Of a DNA stretch of 64,000 nucleotides, positions 4,074 to 38,751 are shown one piece after another. Within the stretch, counting starts at the first letter, position 1; every line of letters begins with the position of its first letter. A program made the position numbers and the translations under genes. Below the pieces are notes generated by a model that did not search any database, was not told where the DNA came from, and was given only the letters and a program-made list of their open reading frames with translations. Origin of the DNA: Niastella populi (GTDB lineage Bacteria > Bacteroidota > Bacteroidia > Chitinophagales > Chitinophagaceae); contig NZ_LWBP01000145.1 of assembly GCF_002078015.1 (NCBI RefSeq), positions 62,001 through 126,000 on the forward strand, written 5' to 3'.

Positions 4074-4961
4074 TTAAGCATTGAACCGGTCACTCACAAC
4101 CAACTCTTTACTTCCTGCAGTATACTTATAGAAGCCTTCACCGGTCTTCATACCCAGGTAACCCGCGGTAACCATATTGGTTAGTAAGGGACAGGGCGCA
4201 TACTTGGGATTGCCGAACCCTTCGTGCAATACGTTCAGGATCGAATGGCAGGTATCGAGACCTATAAAATCGGCCAGTTGCAATGGTCCCATAGGGTGGG
4301 CCATACCCAGCTTCATAATGGTATCTATTTCATTCACGCCGGCTATGCCTTCGTACAAACTGTAAATGGCCTCATTGATCATCGGCATCAGGATACGGTT
4401 GGCAATAAAGCCGGGATAGTCGTTCACTACACAAGGTACTTTACCCAGTTGTTTGCTTAGGGCAACAATGGTGTCGGTCACCGTTTGCGAAGTGGCATAA
4501 CCGTTAATGATCTCTACCAGTTTCATAACCGGTACGGGATTCATGAAATGCATACCGATCACCTGGCTGGCCCGTTTGGTAACGGCGGCGATACGCGTAA
4601 TGGAAATGGAAGAGGTATTGGTGGCCAGCAGGGCATTGGCCGGGGCCACACTGTCGAGCTGTTTGAAGATATTTAATTTAAGCGCTATGTTTTCGGTAGC
4701 GGCTTCTACAACCAGTCCGGCGCCGTCAACCCCTTTGGCCAGGTCGGTAAACGTGGTAATATTGGCCAGGGCGGTATTCTTCTGATCTTCTGTAGCAGCG
4801 CCTTTGGCAATCTGCCGGTCGAAATTCTTTTGGATGGTTTGTACGGCTTTTTCGAGCTGGGCGGCATTTACATCGATAAGGTTTACTTTAAAACCGTTCT
4901 GCGCAAAAACATGGGCTATTCCATTGCCCATAGTGCCGGCGCCGATTACAGCGATATTCAT
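4074..4961 (-). CDS. 3-hydroxybutyryl-CoA dehydrogenase family protein
   Basis: NAD-dependent oxidation or reduction at C3 of short-chain 3-hydroxyacyl-CoA in fatty acid or butanoate metabolism (cytosol). The N-terminal Rossmann motif is GAGTMGNGIAHVFA, followed by NTSSISITRIA and the signature GMHFMNPVPVMKLVEII. The C-terminal 3HCDH domain has GFIANRILMPMINEAIYSLYEG and MKLGMAHPMGPLQLADFIGLD, in several adjoining pieces. With ATG 4959-4961 (MNIAVIGAGTMG) the length is 295 residues, normal for the single-domain enzyme. A longer frame to 5066 translates GATAAT repeats and is rejected. No operon partner is nearby. Confidence 0.9.
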   Translation of the reverse strand: MNIAVIGAGTMGNGIAHVFAQNGFKVNLIDVNAAQLEKAVQTIQKNFDRQIAKGAATEDQKNTALANITTFTDLAKGVDGAGLVVEAATENIALKLNIFKQLDSVAPANALLATNTSSISITRIAAVTKRASQVIGMHFMNPVPVMKLVEIINGYATSQTVTDTIVALSKQLGKVPCVVNDYPGFIANRILMPMINEAIYSLYEGIAGVNEIDTIMKLGMAHPMGPLQLADFIGLDTCHSILNVLHEGFGNPKYAPCPLLTNMVTAGYLGMKTGEGFYKYTAGSKELVVSDRFNA

Positions 4962-5241
4962 AATGTGATAATTTGATAATGTGATAATGTGATAATCCCG
5001 CAGAGCGGGACAGGTTCTGATAATTGGGCTCGCCTGTTTCGAGCCATCTTTTGCAGGCCGCAACATTCTTTAGCTACAGGATACCCAAATATTAGTGCAG
5101 GCAAAAATAAGGGAAACTAACGAGTGTTCGTCGAAAGTGTAATAAAGTAAATTAGCTATGAACAGAATCGCCAGACACGATAATGGAACTGTATTCCATT
5201 ACCGAAATATCGAATTATCACATTATCGAATTATCTAATTC
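4962..5241. repeat. GATAAT-word element with inverted arms
   Basis: The left arm 4964-4996 is a run of TGATAATTTGATAATGTGATAATG-like words (TTTGATAATGTGATAATG). The right arm 5205-5237 is its mirror (CGAATTATCACATTATCG). They enclose about 200 bases with a GC-rich centre (CCCGCAGAGCGGGAC). The left arm starts directly at the dehydrogenase start codon. Other copies are at 54487-54592 and 55628-55694. Confidence 0.7.
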
Positions 5242-34519: not shown

Positions 34520-37084
34520 ATGGCCAACCGCTTAAAAGCAGACAAAGCAGAAAAGAAAAAGCCAGCAAATCCGGAAAAGTTCAAACCTGAAAAAGAAGCT
34601 CAGGTTACGGTGAAACAATTGGTTAAGGACGAACGTACCCATAAGATAGCCGGTGCTTTCGCTTTATTAGTCAGCCTGTTCTTGTTTATTGCCTTTGCAT
34701 CTTACCTGTTCACCTGGCGCGAAGACCAGGATAAAGTGTTCAGGGGAGCCGCTATTTTATTACCCGGTGAAGAAGTAAAAACTACCAACCTGCTGGGTAA
34801 CCTCGGCGCATATATTTCACATTTGTTCTTTTATAAAGGGTTTGGCGCCGCCTCCTTTATGTTCTGCAGCCTCTTTTTCGTAATAGGCGTAAATGCTTTG
34901 CTCGCTTCCAGAATATTCTCCCTCTGGCGCAACGTGCGCTACGTAATAGTAAGCCTGTTATTTTTCAGTGTGGTATTTGCTTTTATGTTCCGCGGCAGCG
35001 CATTTGCTTGGGGCGGAGCGGTAGGCGATATGTGCAGCGACTGGCTGGTGCGAATGATAGGCAGCGTTGGTACGGCGGCATTACTGCTTGTGGCCGGACT
35101 GGCTTATATTATCTGGCGCTTTAATCCCGTGTTCAAAGCGCCTTCGTTGGGTAAAACAAAAACACCGGAGCCTGTAACTGCGATGGAAGGGGCAACATTG
35201 GTGGTTGCCAAAGAAGTTTTAAAGCCCGAAGTGATTAAAGAAACCGGCAATAAGCTCAAAGATGGCATGGGCGTGCTGAAAAAGGGACCTAAAGATCCGG
35301 ATGAAGAAGTTGAAACAGACCTGCAACTGGTAGAAAAAGACGAACCGGTTGAAGAACACCCCGAAGATGTGGAAGAAGATATAGAAGAGGAGGTGGAAGA
35401 GCCCGAAAAACCTGAAATTCCACTACAGGTTGAAACGCCTTCCGTTACCGGAAAAAATAAAAACAACAAACCGGCGCCTGACCTCGAGCTTGAGATAAAA
35501 TCGTATCCCGAAGTAAATGAGCCGGTGGATGTACCGGTTGAGGAAGTGCAACCGGAAGTAAAACCTGTAATTAACCAGGAACCATACGATCCGTCGCTCG
35601 AGCTGCGTAATTATAAATTCCCCGGTCTCGATCTGCTCGAGCTGCATGGCAGCGAACGCATCATTCAGGACCCCGCCGAACTGGAGACAAACAAGAACCA
35701 GATCATCAATACACTGAAGAATTACGATATCGATATTCAAAAGATCAGCGCCACCGTGGGGCCAACCGTAACGTTGTACGAAATAGTACCGGCTGCGGGG
35801 GTGCGCATTTCGCGGATCAAAAACCTGGAAGACGATATCGCGTTGAGCCTGGCGGCCCTTGGTATCCGGATCATTGCCCCTATTCCGGGTAAGGGTACGG
35901 TAGGTATTGAGGTGCCCAATGTGAAAAAGACCGTGGTAAGTATGCGCAGTATGCTGTCATCGGAGAAATTCCAGAACAACAGTTTCAGCCTGCCGGTAGC
36001 CATAGGTAAAAAGATCGATAACGAAAACTTCATTGTTGACCTTACCACCATGCCGCACCTGCTGATGGCCGGTGCTACGGGCCAGGGTAAATCGGTTGGT
36101 TTGAACGCCATCCTGGTATCACTGCTGTATAAAAAACATCCATCGCAATTAAAGCTGGTACTGGTTGACCCCAAAAAGGTGGAGCTGAGCCTGTACCGCC
36201 ATATTGAAACGCATTTTCTGGCCAAATTACCGGGCGAGGAAGAGGCGATCATCACCGACACCAAAAAGGTGATCCATACCCTGAACGCCCTGTGTATTGA
36301 AATGGACAACCGGTACGACCTGTTGAAGGAAGCCGGCGCCCGTAATATTCGCGAATACAACGAGAAATTCATAAAACGGAAGCTCAACCCGCAGAAAGGG
36401 CATCAGTTCCTGCCATTCATTGTGCTTGTAGTGGATGAGTTCGCCGACCTTATTATGACGGCCGGTAAGGAAGTGGAAATGCCGATTGCGCGGTTGGCGC
36501 AGCTGGCCCGTGCGGTAGGAATCCATTTGATCATCGCCACCCAGCGTCCATCGGTGAACATTATCACCGGTACCATCAAAGCCAACTTCCCGGTACGTAT
36601 TGCCTTTAAAGTATCTTCAAAGATCGACTCCCGTACCATTCTCGATGCCGGCGGCGCCGAGCAGCTGATCGGTAAGGGCGACATGCTTATTTCCTATAAT
36701 GGTGAAATCACCCGCCTGCAATGCGCCTTTGTTGATACCCCCGAGGTAGACAGCATTTGCGAATGCATCGGCACCCAGGAAGGCTATCCCCAGGCATTCT
36801 TCCTGCCCGAATATGTTGATGAAAAGCAGTTCGAAGGCAAGGAACTTGACCTCGATGACCGCGATACCCTGTTCGAAAGTGCTGCCCGTATGATAGTGAA
36901 CAGCCAGATGGGCTCAACCTCGTTGTTACAACGAAGGATGAAACTGGGTTACAACCGGGCAGGCCGGTTGATGGACCAGTTGGAAGCTGCCGGTATCGTA
37001 GGGCCCAGCCAGGGAAGCAAGGCACGGGATGTGCTTATAAAAACTGAGGCCGATCTGGATCAGCTGCTGGCCGATATAATTTAA
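34520..37084 (+). CDS. ftsK: DNA translocase FtsK/SpoIIIE
   Basis: 854 residues. The N-terminal membrane domain has four TM helices within residues 45-200. An acidic, proline-containing linker follows (EEDIEEEVEEPEKPE, near 290). The motor domain has Walker A AGATGQGKS near residue 515 and Walker B VLVVDEFADLI near 633, plus ATQRPSVNIITGTIKANFP. The C-terminal gamma winged helix (LLQRRMKLGYNRAGRLMDQL ... GIVGPSQGSKARDVL) reads DNA polarity sequences. It pumps chromosome ends across the division septum and activates XerCD. The linker is short compared with the E. coli protein. Confidence 0.96.
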   Translation: MANRLKADKAEKKKPANPEKFKPEKEAQVTVKQLVKDERTHKIAGAFALLVSLFLFIAFASYLFTWREDQDKVFRGAAILLPGEEVKTTNLLGNLGAYISHLFFYKGFGAASFMFCSLFFVIGVNALLASRIFSLWRNVRYVIVSLLFFSVVFAFMFRGSAFAWGGAVGDMCSDWLVRMIGSVGTAALLLVAGLAYIIWRFNPVFKAPSLGKTKTPEPVTAMEGATLVVAKEVLKPEVIKETGNKLKDGMGVLKKGPKDPDEEVETDLQLVEKDEPVEEHPEDVEEDIEEEVEEPEKPEIPLQVETPSVTGKNKNNKPAPDLELEIKSYPEVNEPVDVPVEEVQPEVKPVINQEPYDPSLELRNYKFPGLDLLELHGSERIIQDPAELETNKNQIINTLKNYDIDIQKISATVGPTVTLYEIVPAAGVRISRIKNLEDDIALSLAALGIRIIAPIPGKGTVGIEVPNVKKTVVSMRSMLSSEKFQNNSFSLPVAIGKKIDNENFIVDLTTMPHLLMAGATGQGKSVGLNAILVSLLYKKHPSQLKLVLVDPKKVELSLYRHIETHFLAKLPGEEEAIITDTKKVIHTLNALCIEMDNRYDLLKEAGARNIREYNEKFIKRKLNPQKGHQFLPFIVLVVDEFADLIMTAGKEVEMPIARLAQLARAVGIHLIIATQRPSVNIITGTIKANFPVRIAFKVSSKIDSRTILDAGGAEQLIGKGDMLISYNGEITRLQCAFVDTPEVDSICECIGTQEGYPQAFFLPEYVDEKQFEGKELDLDDRDTLFESAARMIVNSQMGSTSLLQRRMKLGYNRAGRLMDQLEAAGIVGPSQGSKARDVLIKTEADLDQLLADII

Positions 37085-37204: not shown

Positions 37205-37858
37205 ATGAAAAGCCTAATTGTATTAATTTCTACATATTTCATAGCTACCCTAAGTTTTGCCCAACAAAGCGACCCCGCCGCCAAAAAAGTTTTGGATGCG
37301 GTAAGCGCGAAGTTCAAGACCTTTAAAGCGGTACAGGCCACCTTCACTTTTCAGAATGAAGACAATAAAGGCAATGTGCTGGGAACCAAAAAAGGTACTG
37401 CTTCACTCAAAGGCCCCCGCTACCGGGTAAGTTTTTCCGGAGCCAGCCAGGAGGTTTTTTGCGACGGCACCAATATCTGGACGTACGATAAATCGGCCAA
37501 CGAGGTAACTATCACCAAACCCGATAATTCGGCCAATACCATAACTCCGCAAAAGATCTTCTCTAACTTTTACGATAAGGATTTCCTGTACAAGCTGAAT
37601 GGCGATAAAATGGTAGGCAGGAAAAGAGTGCAGGAAATTGAAATGACCCCGGTTGATAAAACCAAACCATTTCACAAAGTATACCTGCTGATCGACAAAC
37701 AGAACAAAACGCTGTACAGCACCCGCGTACTTGATAAAGCGGGCAACGTAATGGTGTATACCATCAATACCATGAATGGCTCGGCCAACCTGCCCGATAA
37801 CCTGTTTGTGTTCGATAAGAACAAATATCCCGGCGTAGAAGTGATAGATTTGCGATAG
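37205..37858 (+). CDS. lolA: LolA-like outer-membrane lipoprotein carrier protein
   Basis: 217 residues with a signal peptide (YFIATLSFAQQ). LolA-fold pattern: VLDAVSAKFKTFKAVQATFTF, GTKKGTASLKGPRYRVSF, VFCDGTNIWTYDKSANEVTI and ITPQKIFSNFY. Periplasmic chaperone moving lipoproteins from the inner to the outer membrane, consistent with the many lipoproteins in the window. Has its own promoter after ftsK and is followed by a terminator. Bacteroidota LolA proteins are divergent, so the exact client range is inferred. Confidence 0.88.
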   Translation: MKSLIVLISTYFIATLSFAQQSDPAAKKVLDAVSAKFKTFKAVQATFTFQNEDNKGNVLGTKKGTASLKGPRYRVSFSGASQEVFCDGTNIWTYDKSANEVTITKPDNSANTITPQKIFSNFYDKDFLYKLNGDKMVGRKRVQEIEMTPVDKTKPFHKVYLLIDKQNKTLYSTRVLDKAGNVMVYTINTMNGSANLPDNLFVFDKNKYPGVEVIDLR

Positions 37859-37893: not shown

Positions 37894-37920
37894 CCCCGGC
37901 AATGCCGGGGTTTTGCTTTT
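37894..37920 (+). terminator. Intrinsic terminator of lolA
   Basis: CCCCGGC AAT GCCGGGG at 37894-37910, followed by TTTTGCTTTTT. It immediately precedes the palindrome array. Confidence 0.85.
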
Positions 37921-37924
37921 TAGG

Positions 37925-38127
37925 ATTTTCATATGAAAACGGTGCGTTTTCATATGATTTTGTACCATTTTCATATGAAAATGATGTGTTTTCATATGAT
38001 CAGATACCATTTTCATATGAAAACAGTACGCTACCATATGATTTGATACCATTTTCATATGAAAAAGGTATGTTTTCATATGATTTTATACCATTTTGAT
38101 ATGAAAACTGTCCGTTTTCGGATGATT
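37925..38127. repeat. Ten-copy, 21-bp-phased CATATG palindrome array
   Basis: The core CATATG starts at 37930, 37951, 37972, 37993, 38014, 38035, 38056 and 38077, then GATATG at 38098 and CGGATG at 38119: ten positions exactly 21 bp apart. Odd copies read TTTTCATATGAAAA (a perfect 14-bp palindrome); even copies read TTTTCATATGAT, except copy 6 (ACCATATGAT). The higher-order unit is therefore 42 bp, five copies, the last two half-units decayed. The spacers vary (for example CGGTGCG, TGATGTG, CAGTACG). 21 bp equals two DNA turns, putting every core on the same face of the helix. Because 21 is divisible by 3, both strands are open in some frames and spell heptapeptide repeats (FSYENGA/FSYDFVP on plus, FHMKMVSDHM-like on minus), but copy 9 has an in-frame TGA and no start context. 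Lies between the lolA terminator and the end of ubiX. Confidence 0.9.
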
Positions 38128-38181
38128 TAAGGTGAATATCATTTATGGAAAGCTCACTGAGATATGTTCCTTATTAATTCT

Positions 38182-38751
38182 TCATTTCTCATTTTCGCCT
38201 CCCCACCGGTAGGTACTTATATCCAGTCCCGCCAGGTCAAGCACCCGGTCGGTAACGGTGGCAACCGCTTCTTCAATGGTGGCCGGGCGGCTGTAGAAGG
38301 AGGGGGTGGCCGGGCAAATTATTCCACCAGCCAGGGTAACCGTTTCCATGTTGCGGATATGCACCAGGTTATAAGGTGTATCGCGCACCACGCAAATCAA
38401 TTTCCGGCGTTCTTTCAAAACCACATCGGCGGCGCGCGAAATAAGATCGCTCGAAACCCCGGTAGCAATGCGGCCAAGGGTGCCCATAGAGCAGGGGGCA
38501 ATGATCATGGTATTATAACGGCCCGAACCGGAGGCGAAGGGCGCGGTGAAGTCTTTGGTTGAATAGAATGTAACGGGGTATTGGGTGTAATCGGTATTGC
38601 CCAGTTCGGTTTCCCAAACCTGTTTGGCGTTATCGGTCATAACCACCCCAACATCCTGCCATTGTTGTTTAATGGTCAGCAACTTTTCAATCAGTAACCG
38701 GGCGTAAATACTGCCACTGGCGCCGGTAATGGCCAACACTATTTTGTGCAT
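38182..38751 (-). CDS. ubiX: UbiX family flavin prenyltransferase
   Basis: Makes prenylated FMN, the cofactor of UbiD-type decarboxylases, from FMN and dimethylallyl phosphate (cytosol). 189 residues, normal. N-terminal LAITGASGSIYARLLIEKL; then FTAPFASGSGRYNTMIIAPCSMGTLGRIATGVSSDLISRAADV in consecutive pieces; RRKLICVVRDTPYNLVHIRNM; and ICPATPSFYSRPATIEEAV. No ubiD gene is in the window. The last codons (GENEK and stop) are written in the GAAATGAAGAATT repeat word. Divergent from the thioredoxin-like gene, with promoter box TATTTTTG. Confidence 0.93.
   Translation of the reverse strand: MHKIVLAITGASGSIYARLLIEKLLTIKQQWQDVGVVMTDNAKQVWETELGNTDYTQYPVTFYSTKDFTAPFASGSGRYNTMIIAPCSMGTLGRIATGVSSDLISRAADVVLKERRKLICVVRDTPYNLVHIRNMETVTLAGGIICPATPSFYSRPATIEEAVATVTDRVLDLAGLDISTYRWGGENEK

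Follow-up and report, generated by a model that had tools for sequence, protein, structure and literature searches.

Phased CATATG palindromes in Niastella populi and related palindromic arrays with differing cores across the genus Niastella

The F-plasmid centromere sopC consists of 12 tandem 43-bp units, each harboring a palindrome bound by SopB, and REP/BIME elements are individual hairpins that have a loop and carry a GTAG or CGTC tag. For the bacterial satellites of constant period, we know of no established function. According to the available parts of two reports by Subirana and Messeguer, such satellites keep a constant period of 20-21 or 52 nt, while their sequence is species-specific and contains short conserved words (PMC8161180; PMC6749651), and a polymerising protein, a role in the nucleoid, or small RNAs are proposed in the accessible text of the former (PMC8161180). 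The GTAG/CGTC tag of REP appears in the available text of PMC3733652, and that of PMC7383237 describes NBS as spread round the chromosome. Near the terminus, NBS are absent. No account of the arrays treated here was found in the literature on Niastella or Chitinophagaceae repeats or on Bacteroidetes 21-bp palindromic repeats, subscription papers lying mostly outside the scope of that search. In this study, we investigated a palindromic array in the window, meaning the whole stretch of 64,000 nucleotides of Niastella populi DNA that was analysed, and the arrays related to it. The genome of the window is denoted G000 and the other Niastella genomes G001-G009, with C for contigs and L for loci.

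The array in the window and its copies in the same genome

It was observed that the cores of the window array begin at 37930 + 21n (n = 0-9) with zero indels and that the last two are decayed, as the preliminary description had stated, and its 42-bp superperiod was recovered as well, TRF reporting a 42-bp unit at 37925-38128 with 4.9 copies, 80% matches, 0% indels and a score of 261 (Table 1). The alternation of odd and even copies described there holds for the most regular part of the array, where copies 1, 3, 5 and 7 are perfect TTTTCATATGAAAA and the even copies read TTTTCATATGAT (ending in ...CATATGAT), but copy 9 carries one mismatch, copy 6 deviates (CTACCATATGAT, with CTAC in front) and copy 10 is decayed. 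Sites with at most two mismatches from TTTTCATATGAAAA number eight in the window, six of them inside the array, against 0.72 expected, and not one of 100 shuffles gave eight. The direction of the array is nearly ambiguous, with scaffold scores of 73.6 for the minus strand and 69.2 for the plus strand.

Table 1. Features of the window array and of its neighbourhood (positions in the window)
Feature	Positions	Strand	Remark
Whole array, ten 21-bp units or five 42-bp superunits	37926..38128	.	last two units decayed
A sites, TTTTCATATGAAAA	37926-37939, 37968-37981, 38010-38023, 38052-38065	.	
Fifth A site, TTTTGATATGAAAA	38094-38107	.	
B cores, CATATG	37951, 37993, 38035, 38077	.	decayed to CGGATG at 38119
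Core starts, all units	CATATG 37930, 37951, 37972, 37993, 38014, 38035, 38056, 38077; GATATG 38098; CGGATG 38119		
ftsK, further left	34520..37084	+	Pfam FtsK domains
lolA, left neighbour	37205..37858	+	Pfam LolA
Apparent intrinsic lolA terminator, CCCCGGC-loop-GCCGGGG then Ts	37894..37914	+	read from sequence by eye
ubiX-type flavoprotein gene, on the right, convergent	38182..38751	-	Pfam Flavoprotein

The array occupies the gap between the converging lolA and ubiX-type genes, and the apparent lolA terminator directly precedes it, as a neighbour lying outside the array. Pfam agrees with the ftsK, lolA and ubiX neighbours named earlier, its own name for the last being Flavoprotein and 'ubiX' that of the preliminary description. 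LolA shares 79-85% identity with seven Niastella and Longitalea records, and the lolA-ubiX interval, read by eye, carries the array in none of seven relatives. Other short repeats were noticed in this interval (L063-L066, at about 4652-5000), including heptamer hairpins (TTACAGG... / ...CCTGTAA) in four relatives, 8-mers ATTATCAC in L063, and heptamers TTCAATA in L062 and L067. The window itself contains 16 arrays of period 7 to 9 between 3973 and 62650 (TRF), such as AGTTGTTC, AACTAAG and AGTTCAT, many of them of intergenic type.

At least seven whole CATATG arrays were detected in G000 (C145, which is that of the window, C189, C200, C214, C240 and two on C253), together with three fragments at contig ends (C206, C218 and C234) and two decayed relics (C2 at 258.6 kb and C89 at 18.9 kb). 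Across ten loci of this genome, all 67 consecutive in-array CATATG spacings measure 21 bp, and three further spacings of 339-361 bp reach a CATATG outside an array; at the same loci the spacer positions are mixed, while no internal unit has lost its core. Exact TTTTCATATGAAAA occurs in 32 copies in G000, 32 of 32 in arrays, with zero, one or two copies in each of nine congeners. Isolated core sites, by which a self-regulated gene might be marked, were absent from G000. Zero CATATG arrays were present in 400 kb of G000 samples, which had been chosen without the two C253 arrays. Two arrays of another make were also encountered in this genome, namely a 41-bp array on C2 near 87.8 kb (L246:7771), which lay in those samples, with a self-identity of 0.95 and inverted arms CTGTCAGCGC / GCGCTGACAG, representing a second, GC-rich palindromic array kind, and a 41-bp array with TAATTA-like cores (L028:3096-3330, on C200), which abuts the CATATG array and is perhaps older with another core.

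Arrays with other cores in the genus

The preliminary description had made its reading depend on relatives carrying such an array. A search for three CATATG at 21-bp spacing in 394 family genomes gave, among the matches listed, only G000 and G215 (L021), and the latter, with spacers unlike those of G000, was taken as chance; the CATATG array is thus absent from relatives within that scope, while its period and design are present there. The reversed-pattern control, GTATAC at the same spacing, matched in several of the 394 family genomes, and among 98 genomes only in G035, where the repeat was dropped as a different element, being a 21-bp repeat inside a 148-aa open frame (L059:1329-1775, G035:C21; probably a heptapeptide protein repeat). 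When the window array was used in blastn, weak in-phase matches appeared in congeners and led to 21/42-bp arrays with other cores. These cores are CAGTTG/CAACTG and TCCCAGGA/TCCTGGGA in G005, TCCCAGGA, TCCCGGGA and TCCTAGGA in G009, TACGTA with TAATTA in G003 (one array, L053, having a deviating core), CTATATAG in G008, TTTATAGCTGGAAA in G007, and TTTGCAATTGCAAA and TTTCGAGCTCGAAA in G006, with CAATTG as another core among Niastella arrays, and the arrays of G001 and G002 have a period of 41 bp. By exact pattern, TCC-type arrays were found in G005 and G009 only, of the 10 genomes.

Despite their differing cores, the Niastella arrays have a common design, which consists of a T-tract, the core, an A-tract and related spacers in a 42-bp unit. 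Forty-two two-unit stretches from five species align without gaps over 84 columns, in which two Ts before the core and two or three As after it are near-invariant; in the TCC class of G005, AAA often replaces TTT before the core (flank identity 0.66). Alignment A1 was built without L048, L051, L054, L058, L059, L060 and L061 (weak, chance or unlike) and without the contig-end fragments L029, L031 and L032. Spacer identity between classes is modest (0.35-0.48 vs 0.24-0.29 for permuted columns), and 14 of the 15 class pairs were reached by none of 200 permutations and the remaining pair by one; the profile that registered the units has this design itself, a bias towards between-class agreement. 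At E 0.1, a sequence-only profile matched in all ten genus genomes, and for six of these the value fell below 1e-7 (among the matches listed); members of alignment A1 match the profile R1 by construction. Family-wide, a profile search at E 1e-4 matched in 5 of 244 genomes: three belong to Niastella, and the remaining two, from other genera, gave a single weak match apiece. The filters of this search were stricter and missed the Niastella genome G006, which leaves the other absences unproven. When 200 kb from each of four further genera were scanned de novo for periodicity, zero 42-bp arrays and one 21-bp run that looks coding (G015, L262) came up, and among 80 named loci (638,024 bases) none of the seven with a period of 18-59 over the threshold was of this design. 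A 19-bp array, TATTGGC...GCGTACC, was noticed in a Bacteroidetes MAG of another genus (L076:7396-7550, JAIUNW010000008.1), with a word resembling the Niastella spacer GCGTACC.

The expectation of conserved cores and variable spacers was borne out by the spacing count and by the comparison of arrays. Between arrays of one genome or class, the core and spacer identities were 0.96 and 0.51 in G000, 0.78 and 0.54 in G009, 0.80 and 0.57 as well as 0.85 and 0.46 in the two G005 classes, 0.67 and 0.50 in G003, and 0.83 and 0.50 in G008, for units chosen with a profile of which the core is a part; the count of 67 of 67 spacings is independent of that profile. This comparison left out the decayed array L193, all units with a score of at most 3, and the genomes G001, G002, G004, G006 and G007. 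Palindromy was likewise assessed across classes. At the A site, 86.2% of cells are paired, compared with 75.7% in shuffles and at most 63.9% when slid, the covariation score is 0.339 vs 0.161 shuffled and at most 0.159 slid, and 64 cells changed on both sides vs 20.6. Two further measures were not convincing, with pairs changed on both sides at 9 vs 6.9 (reached by 55 of 500 shuffles) and pair types at 21 vs 18.2 (35 of 500). The B site is weaker, with 68.4% paired vs 57.5%, and its values for the same two measures lie at or below the shuffles (reached by 400 and 425 of 500). The central two bases are non-palindromic in the CAGTTG/CAACTG and TCCCAGGA classes. Within a genome, the core is far better kept than the spacers, and it stays largely palindromic across classes while its letters change.

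Loci were assigned as syntenic by their flanking proteins, and the cores differ in five syntenic sets, of which four have full arrays on both sides. These are L027 (G000, CATATG) with L173 (G005, CAGTTG); L028 (G000) with L182 (G005, TCCCAGGA) and L184 (G009, TCC type); L030 (G000) with L176 (G005, CAGTTG); L048 (G005, about two units with mixed cores) with L052 (G003, TACGTA); and L055 (G008, CTATATAG) with L198 (G005, CAGTTG) and L186 (G009, TCC type). The G005-G009 pair in the second set (L182/L184) is of TCC type on both sides, and so is a sixth set, L185 with L197, for which one flanking gene was matched. Syntenic arrays with different cores share a core identity of 0.21-0.62 (seven pairs), which is no better than the 0.18-0.62 of unrelated loci of those classes, compared with 0.67-0.96 within one genome or class. 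The core at a syntenic locus is the species' own and is not bound to the locus. Array direction is opposite in L027/L173, in L030/L176 and in L186 relative to L055/L198. Together with the lack of a lolA-ubiX array in relatives, these flips indicate that arrays, besides being retained, appear, disappear, turn round or grow anew. As traces of this turnover, edge units with a foreign core were seen in G005 (L044, L174) and G003 (L188), next to the abutting 41-bp array of L028, and near-identical units in G006:C11 (0.97) and in G005 at 4.95 Mb (1.0) show recent expansion. A protein family of about 200 aa lies near arrays in four species (L056:2775-3395, L183:1280-1885, L187:271-870 and L199:3615-4283); in the single member that was scanned, this gene (206 aa) matched nothing in Pfam, and it was regarded as a multicopy neighbour.

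The chromosomal distribution was followed in G005, where the arrays among the matches listed span 0.11-8.44 Mb and include 11 CAGTTG-type arrays, eight TCC-type places by exact pattern and a few mixed ones. The sign of GC skew switches between 3.15 and 3.60 Mb in twenty 20-kb samples, which was taken as the terminus, and this switch, near 3.4 Mb, is flanked by arrays at 3.21 and 3.64 Mb. These samples (400 kb) contained four 21/42-bp arrays (L211, L215, L219 and L221), and extrapolating from this small number, four, the genome may hold several dozen. The one at L219:13719 (near 4.064 Mb) is a 21-bp array with the word TTGGAGCAACC, outside the described classes. The genes flanking 39 arrays, called by ORF length, are tandem in 24 cases, divergent in 8 and convergent in 7, a count without C206, C218, C234, C240 and G008:C25 (not both flanks) and the weak L048; with no orientation bias, the arrays stand out neither as terminators nor as promoter elements.

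Possible readings of the arrays

Comparison of the sequences establishes the periodicity, the core constraint, the palindromy, the shared design and the different cores at syntenic loci. We infer from here a binding protein, its co-operativity and its role. It seems to us an even question whether the window array is one of about ten dispersed binding-site tracks for a putative sequence-specific dimeric protein, with reader and core changing together. Dimers of such a protein would sit every 21 bp, that is every two helical turns, on one face of the DNA, and the T and A tracts with the two-turn spacing would let them assemble co-operatively. One protein would read all the arrays of a class, and a change in its specificity would therefore be followed by units with a new core replacing the old ones or regrowing at all arrays. 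The likely job would be architectural, such as nucleoid organisation or the joining of distant loci, and not single-gene control. The dimeric protein on one face had already been suggested in the preliminary description, and the conserved core, the exact two-turn period and the same-period arrays in relatives fit it, but the partition (parS-like) and iteron versions offered with it find no support, as discussed below. Speaking against the reading are the two core classes with a non-palindromic centre, the AAA that often precedes the TCC-class cores of G005, the covariation measures that hardly exceed the shuffles, the deviating array L053 of G003, the reversed direction at some syntenic loci and the lack of an array at lolA-ubiX in relatives. 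A stronger form, in which one dimeric protein per class and its 21-bp-phased palindrome tracks co-evolve fast and each species has rewritten the palindrome at all arrays, the syntenic ones included, is a tentative and rather doubtful proposal.

A selfish or neutral 21/42-bp satellite, which spreads from one intergenic site to the next and expands through slippage or unequal exchange with nothing binding to it, so that the latest expanded variant dominates each species, is a real possibility, though not one that we favour. Such a satellite would account for the near-identical units of G006:C11 (0.97) and of G005 at 4.95 Mb (1.0), for the gain or loss of an array at lolA-ubiX, for the opposite direction at some syntenic loci, and for the foreign-core edge units and the different-core array abutting in L028, and the intergenic regions of the genus are filled by other short-period repeats. 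However, core and spacer divergence is very unequal between arrays of one genome, and neutral copies would not behave so; moreover, no internal core has been lost and palindromy is kept across classes.

It is improbable that the arrays act as transcripts, whether as a structured or small RNA or as a sponge for an RNA-binding protein. On either strand, the window array gives a much stronger fold than its shuffles (z -9.6 and -11.9), L035 does likewise (z -9.4 and -10.0), and 52-nt satellites of B. coagulans are reported to be transcribed (PMC8625621). But repeats made of palindromes are bound to fold on both strands, and the effect is smaller in L046 (z -7.9 and -3.4) and in the other four loci (-1.6 to -4.3). 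In addition, Rfam covariance models gave 0 matches in 8 array loci at the gathering threshold, and the flanks show no orientation bias. At the centre of an RNA hairpin pairing is dispensable, yet it is retained in most classes, which speaks for two-fold recognition of DNA in duplex form and not for a hairpin with a loop centre.

A very remote reading is that the arrays, as a centromere or in nucleoid occlusion, are bound by ParB, Noc or some other member of the ParB family. The core half-sites resemble parS TGTTTCAC-GTGAAACA and NBS TATTTCCC-GGGAAATA as presented in the available text of PMC7383237, and TTTTCCCGGGAAAA of G009 has 12 of 14 central bases in common with NBS. The exact parS 14-mer GTTTCACGTGAAAC was found in 0 of 10 Niastella genomes (G000-G009), though each has ParB, so Niastella ParB must use something else. 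Nevertheless, nine of the ten genus genomes encode one HTH_ParB protein and G001 encodes two, the HTH region of this protein hardly varies between species whose cores differ, and arrays lie on both sides of the presumed terminus of G005, unlike parS or NBS. ParB/Noc was consequently rejected as the reader, and with it the partition or parS-like site of the preliminary description, which had also called for the distance from the terminus to be noted. The iteron cluster named there finds no support either, there being many chromosomal copies and no match in plasmid and phage searches, nor in viral contigs for two core patterns. That the arrays encode a heptapeptide repeat (FSYENGx) is barely credible. 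One frame is open through most units and ORFs cover many arrays, but any period that is a multiple of three leaves frames open of its own accord, ten ORFs over arrays had no Pfam match, edge units bring stops in five of the arrays examined, and the core does not vary at third codon positions either.

Comparison with known systems

The putative dimer tracks resemble sopC in that tandem units of comparable length each contain a palindrome suited to a dimeric protein, whereas in Niastella the arrays are numerous and dispersed over the chromosome, every 42 bp holds two sites, the core is species-specific and no extra ParB-type protein was found. With parS and NBS they share TTTC..GAAA-like palindromes of 14-16 bp; those are single sites of fixed sequence, in contrast to phased arrays with a variable core on both sides of the terminus. 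Like REP/BIME, the arrays are intergenic, palindromic and dispersed, but their palindromes are loop-less, are held in exact 21-bp phase and change in sequence; GTAG is frequent in the spacer of some Niastella classes and absent from the TCC class. If the co-evolution reading is true, the arrays would parallel, in bacteria, the rapidly evolving satellites of centromeres or the PRDM9 sites, their two-turn layout staying constant while their core can be exchanged. Niastella is a convenient system, having many dispersed arrays, a short palindromic core that differs between close species, and syntenic loci as natural swaps, and if site and reader do co-evolve, it would be a tractable bacterial case of the satellite-protein turnover that is otherwise studied at eukaryotic centromeres.

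The Niastella arrays belong to the constant-period satellite kind. They are non-coding and dispersed, keep a 20-21-nt period and are species-specific in sequence, like the satellites described in the available text of PMC8161180. The period is 21 bp in G000, 42 bp in relatives and 41 bp in G001 and G002, several non-coding arrays occur per genome (at least seven whole and three fragments in G000), and the word is species-specific, as CATATG arrays are confined to G000 among the matches listed from 394 genomes and core identity is 0.67-0.96. Set against what that text describes (PMC8161180), Niastella differs in its 42-bp pair of sites, in the palindromic core between T and A tracts, in the spacer design shared across differing cores and in the exchange of cores at syntenic loci. 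This study adds the common design, the palindromic core that can be exchanged on it, and their comparison at individual loci.
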